The position numbers were made by a program, and so were the translations under genes. 43,736 nucleotides of DNA, taken from positions 1 through 43,736 of the forward strand of contig JALWDJ010000027.1 of assembly GCA_027014605.1 (NCBI GenBank). The letters run 5' to 3'. Every line of letters starts with the position of its first letter. Position 1 is the first letter of the stretch. Below are positions 33,912 through 43,736 of the stretch, piece by piece. Under the pieces are notes generated by a model that searched no databases, was not told the origin of the DNA, and saw nothing but the letters and a program-made list of their open reading frames with translations. Source of the stretch: Campylobacteraceae bacterium. GTDB taxonomy: Bacteria; Campylobacterota; Campylobacteria; Campylobacterales; Sulfurovaceae.

Positions 33912-33936
33912 TATAGTGGAGATTATCTCCACTATA
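33912..33936 (+). terminator. Strong hairpin after the DUF2231 gene
   Basis: TATAGTGGAGA pairs perfectly with TCTCCACTATA (11 bp, TTA loop), 7 nt after the stop. The T-run behind it is poor (TCTTCCTT), but the stem is the strongest seen in the window. Confidence 0.65.
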
Positions 33937-34020: not shown

Positions 34021-35415
34021 GTGAGAATTGTGAATATATTAATAGAAGAGATAAAAGCATACCTAAAGAGTTGGATAAAAAATGGTACCCCACCTAATAG
34101 TTTTAAGGATATAAATTTTAACAATAAAATTGGTATTTCTAGAAAACTAATCAAATTGGTAGATAAGAAGAATAATATTAGTAATGAGATTGATAACTCT
34201 TTTAACAATAAAACTATTACATATATTTTGGGACTCTATCTATATAATGATTTAACTATTTCTAAATATAGAGGAGAGTTAGATAATATAAGAATAAAAG
34301 AGCCACGAATTTATCAATTTTTATATAAAGTATTAAAATTAAGAGAAGATGAACCAAAAATACTTCTATCTATTTTTGATTATGATATAAGAGATGTTAT
34401 TGATGAAACTATAGATAGAGATGATTATAGAGTAGAGCTATTTTCTACTCTTGGTTTAACAAGACTTCAAAATCAAGACTATTTAGGTTATCTTGAATTA
34501 AATAATACCCTTGTATTGATTGTAGCTGATGGTGTTGGTGGAGGAGAGGCTGGAGAGGTTGCTAGTAAATTAGCAGTTGATTTTATTATTAATGATTTAA
34601 AAGAGAGCATTCAAAATAATCAATTTAGTAATCATCAATCTATATTAAATCTATTAAGAGATACACTATATCTTGCAAACCATAAGGTAGTAGAGTATGC
34701 AAGTGAACATAATATTGCTGTAATAGGTACAACACTGTCTCTTGCACTTATTATAGATAAGATAAATCTATATATTGCACATATTGGAGATAGTAGAATA
34801 TATGAACTAGATAATAGTTTAGAGGTTAGACAGATAACACAAGACCACTCTGTAAGAGAGGTACTATTTCGCTCCAATAAAATAACTCAAAATGAGAAAG
34901 AAGAGTATAATAAAAGTCTTTTAGCTTTTACTTTAGGTAAGAGAAATCTAAAAAAAGAGAATATATTTACACAGCACTCTATACTTTATAATAGTAGCAG
35001 ATTACTTCTATGTAGTGATGGCTTTTGGGAGAAGATAGATATTAACAAAGAGACTTTTATTAAACCTATAGATAAGTTACAAATAGATATATATAACTCA
35101 ATACCTACAGATAATGTAACTATTATTAGATACTCTCCTAAAGTCTCATCAAGTATAGATGTAGATGATGATATATATGAAGAGTATGAAGATGAACCAA
35201 CGGAGGAGAGAGAAAAATATTATATAAGTTATACCACAAATAGAAGATTTACTAAAGCTAAGAAGATAACAAATAGATTAAATCAACTAAAAAATATAAT
35301 TATTATTTTAATTATTATATCATCTATAACATTTTTTATTTTAAATCTCTTTGTCTCTAAAGATATTGAAGTAGTAGAAAAAGATAATAATTTAACTCAA
35401 TTAAGAGGAGAATAA
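34021..35415 (+). CDS. PP2C-family Ser/Thr phosphatase, membrane anchored
   Basis: Metal-dependent protein phosphatase expected to reverse phosphorylation by the kinase encoded 3 nt downstream. PP2C motifs in order: NQDYLG (Asp153), VADGVGGGEAGEVAS (Asp170-Gly171), GTTLSLALI, HIGDSRIY (Asp257), LLLCSDGFWE (Asp333) and DNVTII (Asp364-Asn365): all metal ligands are present. Residues 1 to about 137 are an extra N-terminal region I do not recognise. A single membrane segment (about 425-445) lies near the C terminus, so the enzyme is cytoplasmic and membrane-tethered, like the kinase. GTG start at 34021 without a good ribosome site; GTG at 34030 is an alternative. Confidence 0.9.
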   Translation: MRIVNILIEEIKAYLKSWIKNGTPPNSFKDINFNNKIGISRKLIKLVDKKNNISNEIDNSFNNKTITYILGLYLYNDLTISKYRGELDNIRIKEPRIYQFLYKVLKLREDEPKILLSIFDYDIRDVIDETIDRDDYRVELFSTLGLTRLQNQDYLGYLELNNTLVLIVADGVGGGEAGEVASKLAVDFIINDLKESIQNNQFSNHQSILNLLRDTLYLANHKVVEYASEHNIAVIGTTLSLALIIDKINLYIAHIGDSRIYELDNSLEVRQITQDHSVREVLFRSNKITQNEKEEYNKSLLAFTLGKRNLKKENIFTQHSILYNSSRLLLCSDGFWEKIDINKETFIKPIDKLQIDIYNSIPTDNVTIIRYSPKVSSSIDVDDDIYEEYEDEPTEEREKYYISYTTNRRFTKAKKITNRLNQLKNIIIILIIISSITFFILNLFVSKDIEVVEKDNNLTQLRGE

Positions 35416-35418
35416 TAT

Positions 35419-37281
35419 ATGACTAATGAGAGTAATGAGCATCTATCAATAGGTTATAAGATAGGTGGACACTATGAAGTCGTTAAAGTTTTAGGGCAGG
35501 GTGGTTTTGGAATTGTATATTTAGTTAAAGATATACATAGACTAAATGCCTTTTTTGTTATAAAGGAGCTCTTTTCAAGAGAGTTTTCTTTTAGACATAG
35601 AGATGGGAAAACAGTATATAATAAAGCTGAAGCAAAAAAAATTTTTACGAAAATTAAAGAAGATATTATATCTGAAGTAAATATTTTACAAAAAATTAGA
35701 AATAAAAATATAGTAGAGGCTTATGGATATTTCGAAGAAAATAATACACTCTACTCTGTTATGGAGTTCATTGATGGTGTAGATTTAGATAAGTACTTAA
35801 AAGAAGTTCCACCATTTAATGAAGATGAGGCAAAAGATTTATTACTTCAAATTATCAATGGAATAAAAGAGATACATAATCTAAATATTCTACATAGAGA
35901 TATAAAACCATCTAATATTATGAGAACTAAAGATGGTATATATAAGATAATAGATTTTACTACAAATAGAACCTATATCGATAATCAGATGACAACAGTT
36001 ACTGCTTTTCAGAGTCCAATCTATACACCACCTGAACTTAGTGGAAATAAAAGAGCTATTATTGGTAAGTTTAGCGATATATACTCTATTGGTATGACAA
36101 TATGTAGAGTAATTGCAGATGATGAAGATACTCTACCAAATATTACAGATAGACTTATTGATGATAGTGAATTTATAGAAATTTTAAATAGTTTTGATAT
36201 ATCTTCTAGTTTTAGAAATATTTTATTTAAAATGACTAAAATCGATGCTGAAGAGAGATTTCAAGACTTAGAAGAGATAGAGAAACTTTTATCCCAAAAT
36301 CAGACTAATTTTAAAGAGGAAAATAAAAAAGAGATAGAAGATATTAAACCGTCTCCTAAAAAAAATATTAAAAGACCACCTAAAAAAGAAGAGAGGGATA
36401 ATACAAAATCTTGGCTTACAACTATTGGTATCTTATTAGCAATTGTACTTTTAGCTCTAGGTGGGTATGCCTATAAAATAGTAAATAAAGATAAGAGTAT
36501 AAATAAATCTCAAAGTGTAACAACATATAAACCAAAACAGAATAAGATAGAAGATAAAGAGGAAGAGCCAGAGATTAAGAGTGAGATTAAACCATTAGAG
36601 ATACCAGAGATTAAAGATACACCAACTCCTACCCCAATACCTACTCCATCACCTCTAATTGAAGATGAGGAGGATATAGCAGAAGATGGTACTATAGAGA
36701 TAGTAACACCAGAACCAACTCCTACAAGAGATAAGAGCATAGAGATAATAACACCAACTCCAACTCCTACAAAAGATAAAAATATAGAGATAGTTACTAC
36801 TCCAACAGCAATACATACTCCTAAACCCATACACAATAATATATCACTTGGAAGAATGATACAACCAGGTAAAAATATAAATTTATCTCATAATTCTCCA
36901 TTTAATAGGGCAAATGTTCAAGATTTTCTATTAAAATTTATTCCTACAGCAGAACATGGCTCTATTAATCATCTTCTTTCATTTTATAACTATAGAGTAG
37001 ATAGATATTTTTCTCTTAGAAATGTTACACATAGAGAGATATATAGAGATAAAGTAAGATATAATAAAAAGTGGGTTCATAGAAGATTTAGATTAATCTC
37101 TTTTGATATTTTATATAAATATAGAAAAAATGGCATAGAGTATTGTGATATAAAAAAGAGAATGAGATATAGAGTTGTATCAAGAAGTGGAAAAGTTGCA
37201 GAGGGTATAAGTAATACTCTTTTAACTTTAAAGGCTACACCTTATGGTTTTAAGGTAGTTTCAATATATAGTATTAGATAG
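35419..37281 (+). CDS. Transmembrane Ser/Thr protein kinase with NTF2-like C-terminal domain
   Basis: Hanks-type kinase, residues 20-290: Gly-loop LGQGGFGIVYLV (25-36), ATP Lys49, alpha-C Glu86, catalytic HRDIKPSN (159-166), metal-binding DFT (179-181) in place of DFG, activation segment TAFQSPIYTPPEL with Glu206. A basic juxtamembrane region precedes one membrane segment (about 333-352). Outside lies a Pro/Thr-rich stalk (about 370-470) with 15-residue repeats, then a C-terminal domain (about 495-620: FLLKFIPTAEHGSINHLLSFY) resembling NTF2-like folds. The extracytoplasmic domain may sense a ligand. It sits between a PP2C gene (3 nt) and a SEDS gene (13 nt); LRGE-TAATAT separates it from the phosphatase, so co-translation is likely. 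Confidence 0.92.
   Translation: MTNESNEHLSIGYKIGGHYEVVKVLGQGGFGIVYLVKDIHRLNAFFVIKELFSREFSFRHRDGKTVYNKAEAKKIFTKIKEDIISEVNILQKIRNKNIVEAYGYFEENNTLYSVMEFIDGVDLDKYLKEVPPFNEDEAKDLLLQIINGIKEIHNLNILHRDIKPSNIMRTKDGIYKIIDFTTNRTYIDNQMTTVTAFQSPIYTPPELSGNKRAIIGKFSDIYSIGMTICRVIADDEDTLPNITDRLIDDSEFIEILNSFDISSSFRNILFKMTKIDAEERFQDLEEIEKLLSQNQTNFKEENKKEIEDIKPSPKKNIKRPPKKEERDNTKSWLTTIGILLAIVLLALGGYAYKIVNKDKSINKSQSVTTYKPKQNKIEDKEEEPEIKSEIKPLEIPEIKDTPTPTPIPTPSPLIEDEEDIAEDGTIEIVTPEPTPTRDKSIEIITPTPTPTKDKNIEIVTTPTAIHTPKPIHNNISLGRMIQPGKNINLSHNSPFNRANVQDFLLKFIPTAEHGSINHLLSFYNYRVDRYFSLRNVTHREIYRDKVRYNKKWVHRRFRLISFDILYKYRKNGIEYCDIKKRMRYRVVSRSGKVAEGISNTLLTLKATPYGFKVVSIYSIR
36685..36819 (+). repeat. 45-nt tandem repeat in the kinase stalk
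   Basis: Three 15-residue units (36685-36729, 36730-36774, 36775-36819): DGTIEIVTPEPTPTR, DKSIEIITPTPTPTK and DKNIEIVTTPTAIHT. The first two are the closest at DNA level. Such stalks vary in length between strains. Confidence 0.8.
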
Positions 37282-37294
37282 AAAAGGATATAGT

Positions 37295-39433
37295 TTGTAT
37301 TTTATTATCTCAGTATCTATTTTACTATTTTTAATAGCCTTTATACTCTTTTTTACAAAGATATATATAGATATAAATAAACGAAATATTACAACAAAGA
37401 GTGCTTATGGTATATTAATTGCTCTGCTTACATCTCTTGCTTGGATTATTATTACACTTTTATATTTTGATTTAATACTAAATAAAAAGGTTAGTTTTGT
37501 TGACTACTATAAATTTCCAATAGAAAATCATAAATCGGTAACTATTGGAAGTGGAGATGATGATGGGAAACATACATATCTAACCAATAAATTAGCAGTT
37601 AATAGTCATCTTTTATTAAAGTTAGATTCTCCAAATAGTGACTATATAGGAACGCTTATTTTACTAACAGATAAGAGAAAAGCTATAGTTAATAATCTTC
37701 TACTTCAAAATATCTCTCCAACTCAAAATAGTATAGGTGAAAAGTTAGGAATTACATTAAAGGAAAATAATAAATATATAGATAGAACTAGAGTAAAAAA
37801 TGGGGATTTCATACGGATAGGTTACTCAAATTATAAAATATATAGGAAAGGTAATAATATTATATTAGATAATGTATCTCTAAATCCATTCTCACCTACA
37901 AATCTATTTTATCTATATACTACAACAACATATCCAGATATTGTAGTAGGAGATAAGGTAGGGGTTGTAAAGAGTAGTCTATTATGGTTATGGGGAGTTA
38001 CAACCTTTATATTTATCTCTTTTGCTACAATTCTATTCTTTATAGTAAGAAAGATGACCGATTACGCAAAAGGAGAGAACCATTGGGCAATTATCCATCC
38101 TATACTATATTTTACAATACTTTTAGCTTTTCTATTTTTAGCCTCATATATAAACTTTACAGTTATGTACTTTTATCAATTTAATATATATGCAAAAGGG
38201 AGTCTATTTACAGAGATAGTTGTATATGGTATGATGTTAACCTTTGGAGTAGTTATAACTATATTATATCATGCTAAAGATATTGTAAAAGCCTCTCAAA
38301 TGGCCACTATTGTCTATTTTATAACTCTTCTACTCTTTATGTTAATTTTTAAAAGCAGTATATACTCCTCAACACATATTCTCTCAATTCCAAAATCTAT
38401 GGGAGTCTTTTTAGGGGAACAGTTATTTATATTTTCTATATTTATGCTATTTGTTGTCTTTTTAAGAAATGGAAAAAAGTATCTTTTTTTAGATAGTGCA
38501 AGAAATTATATAAACAATAATATATATAGACATATTATATTTGCTAGTATTTTTTTATTAGCTACAATATTTATCTTATCTATTGTAGGACTTATAAAAG
38601 AGGGGCAGGGAATGGTATTTATAGAGAGTACAAAACTATTCATATTTCTTTTAGTTACTCTTCTATTTCACCACTCATTTGGTAGAAATAAGGTAGCATA
38701 TCTTGGATCTCTATCTTTATTTTTTATTCTTTTACTTGGAACTATATTTGTAGTTAAAGATAAGGGTTCTATACTACAAGTAGTATTAGCTTTAAGTATT
38801 TTATTTATTTTATTTAAAGATAATTTTAATATAAAAATTATATGGCTTATTGGAATTGCTATAGTTGTTTTATTAATGATGGTTGCATTTTACCATTTAG
38901 AGTTAAAAGATAATGTTAGATACGCTATGTGGACTAACCCTTTTGCTCAGGAGATAGAGCCATCAACACAATATTTTCTATATAGATATGAACAGGTAGC
39001 AAGAGGTATTTTCCTTATTAAAAATAGCTCTCTATTGCCATCAAACTTTATAGATAATAGCTTTCTACCACTACCAGCAATTCATACAGATTTTATCTTT
39101 GCATTTTTTAGTAATATCTTTGGACATATTGGAGTATTAACACTGCTATTTGCACTAATGTTACTATCTCTATCTTTTAAAAAGTCTATGAGTCTATATA
39201 GTAGAGAGAATGAGGTATTTAAATTTATGTATGGAATAAATAGTGTATTTATAGCTTATATGCTCTCATATTTTATTATAAATATGGCTTCTGTCTTACA
39301 GATTATACCTCTAACAGATGTACCACTACCATTTTTGACTTATTCAAAGGGTATATTGGTACTATTTTTAATGCTATATCTATTTGTAGTAGTATTTAAT
39401 CTAAACTATTTAAAATATATCAAAGGTAGATAA
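37295..39433 (+). CDS. SEDS-family glycosyltransferase (RodA/FtsW-like) with inserted FHA-like domain
   Basis: Peptidoglycan polymerase family. The C-terminal half carries LPLPAIHTDFIFAFFSNIFGHIG (591-613) with the catalytic Asp599, and IIPLTDVPLPFLTY (670-683), both SEDS hallmarks. About 14-15 membrane segments are predicted versus ten in RodA. TM1 and TM2 (2-22, 38-62) are followed by a soluble region at about 66-215 that by charge is extracytoplasmic. It starts SVTIGSGDDDG and ends VKNGDFIRIGYSNYKI, resembling the first and last strands of an FHA domain, but the central R/S/H residues are not clear. TTG start with AAGGA six bases upstream. Third gene of the PP2C-kinase-SEDS operon; converges on the transglycosylase gene (6 nt). 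Confidence 0.85.
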   Translation: MYFIISVSILLFLIAFILFFTKIYIDINKRNITTKSAYGILIALLTSLAWIIITLLYFDLILNKKVSFVDYYKFPIENHKSVTIGSGDDDGKHTYLTNKLAVNSHLLLKLDSPNSDYIGTLILLTDKRKAIVNNLLLQNISPTQNSIGEKLGITLKENNKYIDRTRVKNGDFIRIGYSNYKIYRKGNNIILDNVSLNPFSPTNLFYLYTTTTYPDIVVGDKVGVVKSSLLWLWGVTTFIFISFATILFFIVRKMTDYAKGENHWAIIHPILYFTILLAFLFLASYINFTVMYFYQFNIYAKGSLFTEIVVYGMMLTFGVVITILYHAKDIVKASQMATIVYFITLLLFMLIFKSSIYSSTHILSIPKSMGVFLGEQLFIFSIFMLFVVFLRNGKKYLFLDSARNYINNNIYRHIIFASIFLLATIFILSIVGLIKEGQGMVFIESTKLFIFLLVTLLFHHSFGRNKVAYLGSLSLFFILLLGTIFVVKDKGSILQVVLALSILFILFKDNFNIKIIWLIGIAIVVLLMMVAFYHLELKDNVRYAMWTNPFAQEIEPSTQYFLYRYEQVARGIFLIKNSSLLPSNFIDNSFLPLPAIHTDFIFAFFSNIFGHIGVLTLLFALMLLSLSFKKSMSLYSRENEVFKFMYGINSVFIAYMLSYFIINMASVLQIIPLTDVPLPFLTYSKGILVLFLMLYLFVVVFNLNYLKYIKGR

Positions 39434-39439
39434 AAAGAG

Positions 39440-40714
39440 TCAATAGCAGACCTTTTTATCTGAAACTACACCAACTCTATTAGCTCCATATCTATCTTGG
39501 AGGTAATATATATCTGAACGCTTCATTTTACCTAGAGATTTAAAAACTTCTCCACTCATATAGAGACTATTTATTGCTCTATTTTTAAATATACTATCTT
39601 TTAAAACTGCATATTGGTATGGCTCATAATATTTAAGTCCATTTGGATTTATATACCTCTTTAGAGAGTTTAACTCTTTTGATATATAGCTTTTTCCTGT
39701 TAGATATTTAGAAATTTCAGAGTGGCTACTTAACCCCTCCATACCATACATATATCTCTTAAAATCACTATAGTATCTGCAATCTACATCTCTACTATTA
39801 ACCTCATCTTGACACTTAGTAAGACTACCTGATTTATATGCAATTACAGAGGCATCTAAACTCTTACCAATTCTATTATAATATATAAATTTATTAGCAA
39901 GTTTTATAATGCTTGATTTTGGATTAAATGGATTATTTGGCTCTCCATACATCATATAGTAGTGTATAGTTAACTGTAATGCACCAAAAGCTCCTGTTGA
40001 TGAGGTTGCAAATATATTTCCTCTTGACTCAAGATATGTCAATATTACTAAAAGTTTATAGGCATCTAGTTTAGATATTGTAGTCTTTTTAGATAACTCT
40101 CTTGCTACCTTGCTATACTCTCTATCAAATAGAGCTATATATCTTGCAAATTGATTATTATTACCTATCTTCCCTCTCTTAATACCAAATGCTTTCTCTC
40201 CTGCCTCTACCCTTTTAGCACTTAACCTCATATCTATTCCACTATTTTGATAACTCCATCTAATTAAAGGATATAGATATGATACATCATTAAGCATACC
40301 TCTTTGAACTAACTCTTTATAAAATATCTCTATATCTACATGGTCTCTAAAGCCTCTCTGCTTTTGAAAACAGTGTAGTTGATGAGTTGTAATATTATTT
40401 TTATGTGTAGTAAAGTAGTTATTAAAAAATTTAAACTTTTTAAAAAAGCTCTTATCATCATAAGCAATAGCTAACCATCTATTTATATATTGCTTCTTAG
40501 TTAACCTATAAGGGTATAGTACAGTATCAAAATATATCTTTTGAGAACTATTAAGAGATTTATAAAACTCTTTTTTACAACTATAGTTATCTATAAAGAA
40601 CTGTTCTAAACTTTTACTATGGGCTAATTTATTAGCCCAAAATCTATATGAACTTGAACACTCTGCATATATATTTATAGTTAATATTAATAATAGTAAT
40701 ATTTTATTGTTCAT
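39440..40714 (-). CDS. Exported lytic transglycosylase-like protein
   Basis: Signal peptide (1-17). The N-terminal 210 residues are unrecognised, Lys/Tyr rich and helical. An SLT-type lysozyme fold follows: catalytic Glu229 in TYLESRGNIFATSSTGAFGALQLT, then VIAYKSGSLTKC (289-300) in the position of the usual AYNAGP motif. It should cleave the MurNAc-GlcNAc bond of peptidoglycan, with the caveat that the AYNAG block is altered. The motif residues Gly and Gln (GALQL) are kept. Its ATG overlaps the stop of the large surface protein gene by 4 nt (ATGA at 40714-40711), so the two are co-translated, and it converges on the SEDS gene. Confidence 0.82.
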   Translation of the reverse strand: MNNKILLLLILTINIYAECSSSYRFWANKLAHSKSLEQFFIDNYSCKKEFYKSLNSSQKIYFDTVLYPYRLTKKQYINRWLAIAYDDKSFFKKFKFFNNYFTTHKNNITTHQLHCFQKQRGFRDHVDIEIFYKELVQRGMLNDVSYLYPLIRWSYQNSGIDMRLSAKRVEAGEKAFGIKRGKIGNNNQFARYIALFDREYSKVARELSKKTTISKLDAYKLLVILTYLESRGNIFATSSTGAFGALQLTIHYYMMYGEPNNPFNPKSSIIKLANKFIYYNRIGKSLDASVIAYKSGSLTKCQDEVNSRDVDCRYYSDFKRYMYGMEGLSSHSEISKYLTGKSYISKELNSLKRYINPNGLKYYEPYQYAVLKDSIFKNRAINSLYMSGEVFKSLGKMKRSDIYYLQDRYGANRVGVVSDKKVCY

Positions 40715-43700
40715 CTATTTTTTAAATCAACCATTCCCCAATAACCTTTTAAATCTGTACCCATTAATCCTAATACTATTTTATCTAATTCACTATTTTC
40801 TGGGATTCTCATTAGATATGATACATCCATTCCACCATTTACTTTATTTAAAATAATCGGGCTATCTACATCAAAAGTATTATTACTAAATAGTATATAA
40901 ACATCATAAGAATTTACATTTGTAACATTTCTAAATATTATATCTTTTATATAGTTACTAGCTCTTGGATGAGATGAAGCTTTAGTAAATCTATTCAATA
41001 TAGAACTTGCTTTAATTGTAAAAAATTTATTTCCACTTATTGTAGTTGTTGTTTTTATATCTTCATTTCTATTTGTAATAGTAGTGGAAATGAATGAATC
41101 ATCACTTTTTCTTGCAATTAATGTAAGATTTGAGTCTGCTTTTGCTTTTATTGTAACGATATTTTCCTTTTTAGTTATAGTTAATGGTATAATAGCTAAA
41201 AGTTGAACATCAATAAAATCTTCATAATATGGATTAAATCTATTAATTATAATTGAAATATTTATATCTTTAGTTCCATTTTTTACCAAATTACTATTTC
41301 TAATTTCTACCGAAAAATCATAGAAATTAGATAAATTATCATCAATTTCATCAAAACTATTAGCTATTATCACAGGTTTTGTAATTGTTCCAAAATATCC
41401 ATCATCTCTCACATAAGAAATATCGTTACCTATTTTTATTTTAGTTAATTGTGTTGTACCTTTACAATATGAAAATGATGTTTTTTCACTTGGAGCTAAA
41501 ATTTTATTCCAATTATTATCTTTCCCTGTAATAATGTAATTGTTATTTCCAGTATCATTTATATCTGCATTATTTATAAAATCAATTGAAGATGTAGTAT
41601 TAATTTCATATTTCCATTTTACAGCATTATTGTTGTTGTTAATAACTGTAATATATTTACAATTTCTATAACTATATTCAGACTCTTTATCTACTAAAAT
41701 AGCTTTGTTATCTATATTAAGCTTTGTATTTGTTGCACAATATCCAAAACTAGTTTTTCCCCAACTATTGATATTAAGATTAGATGCAATTCCTTCTACG
41801 GATAATTTATGTTCACTACTATCTGTTAAATTGCTATCCCAAGTATTGAAAGTATAACCAACTATATCATAATCATTAAGTTTCCAATTTTTGATAGGAT
41901 TTGGAGTTATATTTCTAATTGTAACTTTATTACATGAACCTGTGCTTTCCCCACTCCAACTATTTATTTTATCTTCATATAAATTAACTATAAATGGATT
42001 ATCTTGATTGGAACTTGCACAATAATTAAAATAGAAGTTTCTATTAGGTAATAGATAACCATTACTATTTTTATCTTCTATTGATTTCAATATTCCACTA
42101 TTAGAGTTATTATATTTAATATTCCATGATTTGTAGTAACCATAATAAGAACTATTATTTAAATCAAAATTATTAATTTTCCAATCAATTACATCATTTG
42201 AAATATTCTCTATCTTTACCTCTTCACAATATCCATCACCCCAAGAGGTCTTTTTGCCCTTAACAATATTAAATTTACCACTTGTCTCATTGGCATCAGT
42301 AAATTTACCATTTTGCACATCATTAAATGCACAATATCCAAATTTAACTTGACTAAAAGGTAATACTGTGTTATTCCACCATAATCCAGAGGCTTTAAAG
42401 GTTGTTCTATTGGTATCACTATACTCATTTTTATCTGTAATATTAACATTCCAACTATCAAATATTTTACCTGAAATATTCATATCAATATTCCATATAT
42501 TAGGAGTAAGACTGTTATTTTTTACATACACATTTGCACAATAACCATTATTCCACTCTAAATATTTTTTAATTTTAGTTGATATCTCTTTCAATTTTAA
42601 TTTATTAATATCAACACTACTAGGGATGGTTACAGATGATATAAAATCATCAAAGCTATTAATATTTATCAAATTAGCTAAATCATTAATAGAAGCAAAT
42701 CTTCCACCAAAAAAAGCATTTATTTGATCTACTGAAAGATTAGATATATCTATATATTTTGATAATATATTTGAATTATAAATAGTTTTATAATCTATAT
42801 TGATTAAGCTATCTATATTAAAAGAAAAATTACCAATTGAAATAAAGTTAGTTAATTTATCTAACTGGATAGACAACTTTTCTACATTAAAACTTCCTAT
42901 AAATAGTTTAGAACTAGTTTGAATCATTGTTGAGATTTGTTTTTTACAAAATTCTTTTGATGTTGTTTTATCTATTTTATTATCAAGTTTAGAATCAATC
43001 ATTGTACTAAATATAATATTTAAATCCATCATAGAGTTATAATTTAAGATAGTTGAGCTAAAAGATTTATATACAAAACTAAATGCTTCTTCTTGACCTC
43101 CAGTTTTTGATAAATCAATAAGTTCAGTAGCTAATTCAATAGATTTTTGAATTTGTGAAGATATTTTAAAAAGAGATATATCTCCTTTTTCTGCCTCTTC
43201 TATTGGATCTGCTCCTAATTTTAAAATATTTATATTAAGGACTTTAGATATTTTTAGTTCAATATTTTTGATAATATTATCAAGATTTTCATCTGTTGTA
43301 AAAGGTTTATCTGCAGTTATCTCCTCTTCAATACTATTAGCTAATATTGTAGTGATAGGTGTAATATTTACTTTTATTTTAGGTCTTCTAAGACTTAAAG
43401 GTGCTCTTAATCGTCCTCTAAATTTTTTAGCAGTACCACTATCTATTCCACCCATTATAATTATTGGTGCATAACCTGTTTTTGATGCTTTTTTTTGATT
43501 GGAAGTTAAAGTAAAACTATATTTCCCATATTTATCAGTTATTTCTTTAGGTTCTCCCTCATCCCATTTATTATTTCTATTTAAATCTAAAAATACAGTA
43601 GAGTTTATTAATTTTCCATCTACTCCTGTTCCTTCTATTTGTGTATCTGAATTTAAATCATTATCTATTGGTATGGGTGTAGGAGTTGGTGTACTAGTTG

Positions 43701-43736
43701 GTAATGTTGTAGGTGTATTAGTTGGTACTGTTGTAG
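40711..43736 (-). CDS. Very large exported multidomain protein, 5' end outside the window
   Basis: The frame is open from the window edge (at least 1008 codons). From the N-terminal side: a Thr/Pro linker (43736 to about 43672, PTSTPTPTPIP), an SdrD B-like module (VFLDLNRNNKWDEGEP then GKYSFTLT, about 43609-43506), a helical region of about 300 residues opening with the KFRGRLRAPLSL and ITPITTIL blocks known from adhesins, four Cys-bounded CBM2-like modules (42546 to about 41464) and a C-terminal beta region ending KGYWGMVDLKNR. The ATG at 43455 is internal, since the same domain continues upstream of it. Probably a surface adhesin or glycan-binding protein. It shares an ATGA overlap with the lytic transglycosylase gene downstream. 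Confidence 0.8.
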   Translation of the reverse strand, partial: TTVPTNTPTTLPTSTPTPTPIPIDNDLNSDTQIEGTGVDGKLINSTVFLDLNRNNKWDEGEPKEITDKYGKYSFTLTSNQKKASKTGYAPIIIMGGIDSGTAKKFRGRLRAPLSLRRPKIKVNITPITTILANSIEEEITADKPFTTDENLDNIIKNIELKISKVLNINILKLGADPIEEAEKGDISLFKISSQIQKSIELATELIDLSKTGGQEEAFSFVYKSFSSTILNYNSMMDLNIIFSTMIDSKLDNKIDKTTSKEFCKKQISTMIQTSSKLFIGSFNVEKLSIQLDKLTNFISIGNFSFNIDSLINIDYKTIYNSNILSKYIDISNLSVDQINAFFGGRFASINDLANLININSFDDFISSVTIPSSVDINKLKLKEISTKIKKYLEWNNGYCANVYVKNNSLTPNIWNIDMNISGKIFDSWNVNITDKNEYSDTNRTTFKASGLWWNNTVLPFSQVKFGYCAFNDVQNGKFTDANETSGKFNIVKGKKTSWGDGYCEEVKIENISNDVIDWKINNFDLNNSSYYGYYKSWNIKYNNSNSGILKSIEDKNSNGYLLPNRNFYFNYCASSNQDNPFIVNLYEDKINSWSGESTGSCNKVTIRNITPNPIKNWKLNDYDIVGYTFNTWDSNLTDSSEHKLSVEGIASNLNINSWGKTSFGYCATNTKLNIDNKAILVDKESEYSYRNCKYITVINNNNNAVKWKYEINTTSSIDFINNADINDTGNNNYIITGKDNNWNKILAPSEKTSFSYCKGTTQLTKIKIGNDISYVRDDGYFGTITKPVIIANSFDEIDDNLSNFYDFSVEIRNSNLVKNGTKDINISIIINRFNPYYEDFIDVQLLAIIPLTITKKENIVTIKAKADSNLTLIARKSDDSFISTTITNRNEDIKTTTTISGNKFFTIKASSILNRFTKASSHPRASNYIKDIIFRNVTNVNSYDVYILFSNNTFDVDSPIILNKVNGGMDVSYLMRIPENSELDKIVLGLMGTDLKGYWGMVDLKNR
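41464..42546 (-). repeat. Four tandem Cys-bounded CBM2-like modules
   Basis: Counting from the Met at 43455, modules span about residues 304-376, 408-479, 506-574 and 597-665. Each begins with a Cys two residues before a strand (GYCANVYV, GYCEEVKI, GSCNKVTI, RNCKYITV), has a central Trp strand (such as DSWNVNI, KSWNIKY, NTWDSNL), and ends F-x-Y-C (FGYCAF, FNYCAS, FGYCAT, FSYCKG). An N-to-C disulfide and a W-N-x-x-L-x-P closing loop (LLPNRNF, ILAPSEK) are features of family 2 cellulose/chitin-binding modules. Sequences are divergent, so the repeats are old. Confidence 0.65.

Follow-up and report, generated by a model that had tools for sequence, protein, structure and literature searches.

The 43,736-nucleotide stretch of DNA analysed here (the window) is contig JALWDJ010000027.1 of assembly GCA_027014605.1, from a Campylobacteraceae bacterium of the Sulfurovaceae whose genome is called G000; other genomes carry G-numbers, contigs C-numbers and loci L-numbers. 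At 34021-39433 the window contains an operon of three genes, all on the plus strand, which encode a PP2C-type phosphatase, a Hanks-type kinase and a relative of the SEDS proteins RodA and FtsW. This operon is described together with two genes on another contig of the same genome, those of the transpeptidase PBPX and the soluble protein P582. The operon shows the following features (aa, amino acids; TM, transmembrane segment):

34021..35415, plus strand: PP2C-type Ser/Thr phosphatase, tail-anchored, 464 aa (PF13672, PP2C_2, 3.3e-17; motifs; TM)
35419..37281, plus strand: transmembrane Hanks-type kinase, 620 aa (PF00069, Pkinase, 2e-38)
37295..39433, plus strand: SEDS-family protein with an N-terminal extension of 5 TM and a C-terminal core of 10 TM, 712 aa (PF01098, FTSW_RODA_SPOVE, 1e-12)
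37469..37990, plus strand: predicted periplasmic domain of the SEDS extension, residues ~59-232, between TM2 and TM3 (topology)
39083..39103, plus strand: HTDFIFA motif with the catalytic Asp D599 (codon 39089-39091), equivalent to D262 of E. coli RodA (alignment)

An earlier note on this DNA had described three adjacent same-strand genes with gaps of 3 and 13 nucleotides, and the open reading frames (ORFs) bear this out. All three proteins exceed the curated Pfam cut-offs. The ORFs are free of internal stops and their between-species ratios of nonsynonymous to synonymous substitution (dN/dS) lie between 0.05 and 0.33; they therefore correspond to real genes.

The phosphatase was expected to be membrane-tethered and indeed combines the PP2C_2 match with a single predicted TM near the C-terminus (residues 426-444, about 35296-35352). 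It carries the metal-binding motifs ADGVGG, GTT, GDSR, SDG and TDN, and its long N-terminal part has no family match. It is near the Firmicute Stp1/IreP family by HMM, yet falls below the NCBIfam equivalog cut-offs. Translation more probably starts from the GTG at 34030 than from that at 34021, since the homologue in G015 has its first codon at this second GTG.

The kinase is a one-pass protein, as had been proposed, with the kinase domain inside and ~270 aa outside. The kinase domain (residues ~19-282) is followed by a TM (333-351), a Pro/Thr-rich linker and an ectodomain of ~130 aa (36886-37278). The G-loop, VIK and HRDIKPSN motifs are present. The PASTA-type kinase StkP is among the solved structures closest to the kinase domain. 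However, no PASTA domain is matched by Pfam in the window kinase, and the NCBIfam profile PknB_PASTA_kin matches only the part from the kinase domain to the TM, far under its cut-off. The ectodomain has no Pfam or PDB match; an NTF2-like fold was suspected by eye and was not retained, as neither database supports it.

Members of this ectodomain family recur in two other proteins of the genome. In the first, encoded directly after PBP2 (L052, contig C94, 10855-11832), the domain is combined with a C-terminal SPOR domain. Homologues of this protein occur in many genomes of the genus, and its architecture suggests a possible wall-binding partner of PBP2. Its N-terminus looks SH3-like, judged by eye only. 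The second (weak match) is an alpha-2-macroglobulin-like protein of 1887 aa (L055, contig C5, 539-6202); similar frames of ~1900 aa are found in several relatives. The domain is therefore tied to the wall by context.

The third protein matches PF01098 with 48.2 bits against a cut-off of 26.4, and the own-genome search likewise places it over the cut-off. E. coli MrdB aligns with its core in a PDB profile search (7e-7), as do RodA and FtsW of the same genome. This homology is limited to residues ~444-703, within a core (residues ~330-712, 10 TM) that is preceded by the extension of ~330 aa and 5 TM. For the 15 predicted TM, the short odd loops hold 24 Lys and Arg residues and the even loops 7, so that the positive-inside rule assigns the C-terminus to the inside, and both the N-terminus and residues 59-232 to the outside. 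This domain has no match in Pfam or among PDB sequences, and its low-confidence model has no fold match. A cytoplasmic FHA readout at residues 75-195 was considered and rejected: it finds no support in Pfam, PDB sequences or Foldseek, and the topology puts the domain outside.

The residues examined in work on the structure of E. coli RodA-PBP2 include D262, W102, Q111, E114, K117, D159, E258 and the YGGS motif, of which W102 and Q111 are described as invariant (PMC10449877). D599 and D489 are clear equivalents of D262 and D159, and E444 and K447 are probable equivalents of E114 and K117. The RodA/FtsW-type protein with a catalytic Asp announced in the earlier note is thus present. HTDFIFA and D489 are invariant among four SEDS homologues (66-93% identity to the window protein), whose dN/dS is 0.08-0.16 (~0.1 in the core); the protein is therefore under constraint. 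By homology it is a divergent member of the SEDS family, and may polymerise lipid II.

Canonical RodA, FtsW, PBP2, an FtsI-type protein and class A PBPs (PBP1a, PBP1c) are encoded separately in the genome. Since the elongation and division synthases are present, the genes described here constitute an extra set. A search of the genome for transpeptidase domains returned six matches in five proteins. NCBIfam assigns four of them, as PBP2, the FtsI-type protein beside FtsW, PBP1a and PBP1c. The fifth is PBPX (contig C75, 11065-14682, minus strand, 1205 aa), which is composed of a 30-aa cytoplasmic tail, one N-terminal TM, an ectodomain of ~750 aa that belongs to no family and a C-terminal transpeptidase (PF00905, 9e-26). 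The active-site motifs SxxK (863), SxN (936) and KTG (1140) are all invariant across homologues, and Pfam finds no GT51 domain. The transpeptidase part is nearest to PBP2/MrdA by NCBIfam, and M. tuberculosis PBPA provides the sole PDB-sequence matches.

The P582 gene follows PBPX on C75 and overlaps its stop codon. It encodes a soluble protein of 582 aa with no Pfam or PDB match. Comparisons with hhalign reveal no mutual homology between P582, the PBPX ectodomain and the SEDS periplasmic domain. G006 carries, apart from its intact copy, a fragment of 40 residues matching the P582 C-terminus (C215, 4967-5086), possibly the remnant of a duplication.

The genus is uncultured and Gram-negative and is represented here by 34 genomes. 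P582 was identified in 6 of them, PBPX in 5, the SEDS extension in 4 and the full kinase in 5. Every one of these sets falls within the same six genomes (G000, G005, G006, G015, G017 and G027), and neither the SEDS protein nor PBPX nor P582 was found in the other 28. PP2C is found in all six; outside them the PP2C search took in few genomes only. The gaps in the set fall where a contig breaks off, for SEDS in G006 and for the kinase and SEDS in G027, or where the draft is incomplete, for PBPX in G005. Hypergeometric probabilities, uncorrected for shared ancestry, are 3e-4 for the inclusion of SEDS in the P582 set and 2e-5 for that of PBPX. On contig C96 of G027, each gene in the order PBPX, P582, PP2C overlaps the beginning of the next. 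In G005, one contig carries P582 directly adjoining PP2C, with the kinase next, and a second contig holds the remainder of the kinase and SEDS. The order PBPX-P582-PP2C-kinase-SEDS can be pieced together from these overlapping segments. The genes occupy two loci in G000, G015 and G006 and three in G017. Retention of the set though its loci are scattered argues for a functional bond. The operon genes are thus conserved together in relatives; however, the operon described in the earlier note is incomplete as a system, since PBPX and P582 also belong to that system.

Twenty other genomes of the genus encode half-kinases, in which an N-lobe only is followed by a TM and then by the same ectodomain as in the window kinase. 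They are mostly 390-510 aa long where complete, and their N-terminus aligns with the N-lobe of the window kinase (for example GEDDFEILYLV..HR..SFFVIKELF). The C-lobe is missing and the G-loop is degraded, while the beta3 Lys is kept. HRD occurs in none of the 17 examined, and DFG or DFT in none of the 9 of these that were also checked. The loci are:

L039, 5412-6728: half-kinase
L041, 8834-10069: half-kinase
L038, 9273-10790: half-kinase
L040, 1976-3241: half-kinase
L099-L103 and others: half-kinases

The six genomes with the module yielded no half-kinase (p 0.002, uncorrected). In one species pair dN/dS is ~0.07 for the N-lobe against ~0.45 for the linker: the N-lobe is under strong purifying selection. 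Half-kinases probably derive from a full kinase, because a C-lobe is unlikely to have arisen anew. Like the bacterial Ser/Thr pseudokinases MviN and EssB/YukC (reviewed in PMC12599244), they are membrane-anchored and degenerate with a degraded G-loop, and both groups show a wall or envelope link in some cases; unlike them, half-kinases lack the entire C-lobe. The text of that review, searched for C-lobe and truncation, makes no mention of a kinase form without C-lobe.

Taken together, PBPX, P582, PP2C, the kinase and the SEDS protein probably form one module, a third synthase of SEDS/class-B-PBP type under a kinase/phosphatase switch. Next to RodA/PBP2 and FtsW/FtsI, the SEDS protein and PBPX would constitute a third pair that polymerises and cross-links glycan. 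The kinase ectodomain would read a wall-related signal in the periplasm, and the kinase would phosphorylate targets in the cytoplasm (the soluble P582, the short 30-aa tail of PBPX or SEDS loops, or a combination of these), thereby switching the synthase. From its anchor in this membrane, PP2C would undo the phosphorylation. Gene content, catalytic motifs, predicted topology, the co-inheritance of rearranged loci and purifying selection are established; we infer that SEDS pairs with PBPX and polymerises glycan, what signal is read, which proteins are phosphorylated and in which direction control runs. The earlier note had proposed a wall-growth switch. This proposal is supported in part, as the genes are conserved together in relatives and, like those of Actinobacteria, are linked to a class-B-type transpeptidase. 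However, the module need not switch the standard synthases, because the genome encodes RodA/PBP2 and FtsW/FtsI as canonical sets of their own. A more specific version is possible and is put forward tentatively: the module may be a dedicated third SEDS-PBP synthase for the wall or another glycan in a Gram-negative lineage, composed of a SEDS protein that has its own periplasmic domain and of the giant transpeptidase, and gated by the kinase and phosphatase through P582 as a new cytoplasmic regulator; in sister species the kinase may have been reduced to the half-kinase, a conserved signalling protein of the membrane that has outlived the synthase.

Several observations weigh against such a module. 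The DFG motif of the kinase is replaced by DFT in every complete copy checked. The SEDS core lacks equivalents of W102, Q111, E258 and the GG of YGGS. By alignment, the catalytic Asp is retained and acceptor-side residues are lost, which gives a mixed answer to the earlier concern that conserved cavity residues might be absent: D262, D159 and probably E114/K117 are kept. PBPX has no PBP_dimer (PF03717) match in Pfam. AlphaFold gives a pLDDT of 40.6 for the full-length SEDS protein and 51.1 for its periplasmic domain alone; fold matches of these models are therefore not trusted. The five-gene order rests on two draft genomes combined, and shared ancestry may account for part of the co-occurrence, since the genomes concerned belong to one clade. 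Finally, most genomes of the genus lack the module, which therefore cannot serve a core wall function.

The losses in the SEDS core lend themselves to another explanation, in which this protein has ceased to polymerise peptidoglycan and serves as a scaffold or pseudo-enzyme, or else has a different undecaprenyl-linked glycan as its substrate, and PBPX works alone or with class A PBPs. Besides the missing W102, Q111, E258 and GGS equivalents, it would accommodate a weak, sub-threshold match to O-antigen ligase (Wzy_C) and the large periplasmic insertion, for which the phylum sample yields relatives in this genus only. We consider it unlikely, though of some weight, given the invariance of HTDFIFA and D489 in four proteins whose identity falls as low as 66%, the core dN/dS of ~0.1 and the co-inheritance with a transpeptidase whose active site is intact.

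The module could also have been acquired horizontally, as a direct descendant of an actinobacterial or Firmicute-type pknB-pstP-rodA-pbpA cluster, instead of having been assembled independently. The set of parts matches, the best solved match of PBPX is M. tuberculosis PBPA, and StkP is among the closest solved relatives of the kinase. This descent nevertheless appears improbable: PASTA and FHA are absent, PBPX reaches 1205 aa without a PBP_dimer match, and in NCBIfam its transpeptidase part matches PBP2/MrdA best. It is less probable still that the kinase and PP2C control other things (general envelope stress, surface structures) and merely adjoin the SEDS gene: other kinase/PP2C clusters of the genus do link to unrelated genes such as FHA-ABC transporters, and half-kinases with the same ectodomain exist without SEDS or PBPX, but the five genes are kept together in six genomes though spread over two or three loci.

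In the actinobacterial pstP-rodA-pbpA-pknAB-fha cluster, PstP acts on PknA, PknB and PbpA (PMC6554272, PMC3989709). The module resembles this cluster in combining a TM-bearing PP2C, a transmembrane Hanks kinase, a SEDS protein and a class-B-type transpeptidase, linked in G005 and G027. It differs from it by the lack of a PASTA ectodomain and by the presence of P582, of the giant PBPX and of the SEDS extension with 5 TM and a periplasmic domain. It is also patchy in one Gram-negative genus, whereas the cluster is core in Actinobacteria. FHA domains are likewise missing, with 0 PF00498 matches in the genome, which speaks against membership. In the absence of PASTA and FHA, the module is therefore not filed with the actinobacterial cluster. 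The claim that it follows the same logic holds for the linked class-B-type transpeptidase; it does not extend to PASTA or to any detectable FHA. The kinase domain has the Firmicute PASTA-kinase systems (Stk1/PrkC, StkP with Stp1/PhpP) among its closest solved relatives, but the module differs from these in its gene partners, in the lack of PASTA and in scores that stay under the equivalog cut-offs of NCBIfam. With RodA-PBP2 and FtsW-FtsI (PMC10449877) it shares the D262 and D159 equivalents and a single-TM transpeptidase with SxxK, SxN and KTG; unlike these pairs, it shows diverged acceptor-side residues, an N-terminal SEDS extension and a PBPX ectodomain of ~750 aa with no dimerisation-domain match.

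The SEDS extension and P582 were not found outside the genus in a sample of 397 genomes of the phylum, where a match of 65 residues in G394 looked spurious. Nothing similar was found elsewhere in this sample, in agreement with the earlier remark that such a cluster is not standard in the group. A pattern scan of 84,980 species, which reaches close relatives only, returned no more than three loci, already known and all in Campylobacterota metagenome-assembled genomes; distant relatives in other phyla are therefore possible. Searches for relatives of the module on plasmids were negative. Among titles and abstracts we found no paper describing such a module.

Kinase control of wall synthesis through a cluster of SEDS, PBP, kinase and phosphatase genes is regarded as a Gram-positive and actinobacterial theme. 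If the proposed module is real, a co-inherited and patchy Campylobacterota version atop canonical synthases would mean that this arrangement can be an accessory, exchangeable system. Some sister species possess the full module, others a half-kinase and others neither of the two, so that comparing them would be a natural experiment on the contribution of phosphorylation control.

Two further features flank the operon:

33912..33936, plus strand: terminator-like hairpin between the upstream HemJ/DUF2231 genes and the operon (weak; 1 found vs 1.0 expected in shuffles)
39440..40714, minus strand: SLT-type lytic transglycosylase-like gene, convergent (PF01464, 1.2e-4, barely over the cut-off)

The lytic transglycosylase-like gene also adjoins the operon in G015; this conserved position does not by itself make it a member of the module. 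Beside it, at 40711-43734, lies the gene of a protein with CBM_2 (cellulose-binding-like) repeats (>1007 aa), which runs past the contig end and whose visible start is Ser/Thr/Pro-rich. FHA clusters occur outside the module in two relatives: in G017 (L037, 8123-14339) a kinase and a PP2C accompany an FHA-FHA-ABC transporter fusion, and in G005 (L042, 3654-8613) an FHA-ABC protein is found with an FHA kinase-like protein and, judged by eye, a caspase-like protein.

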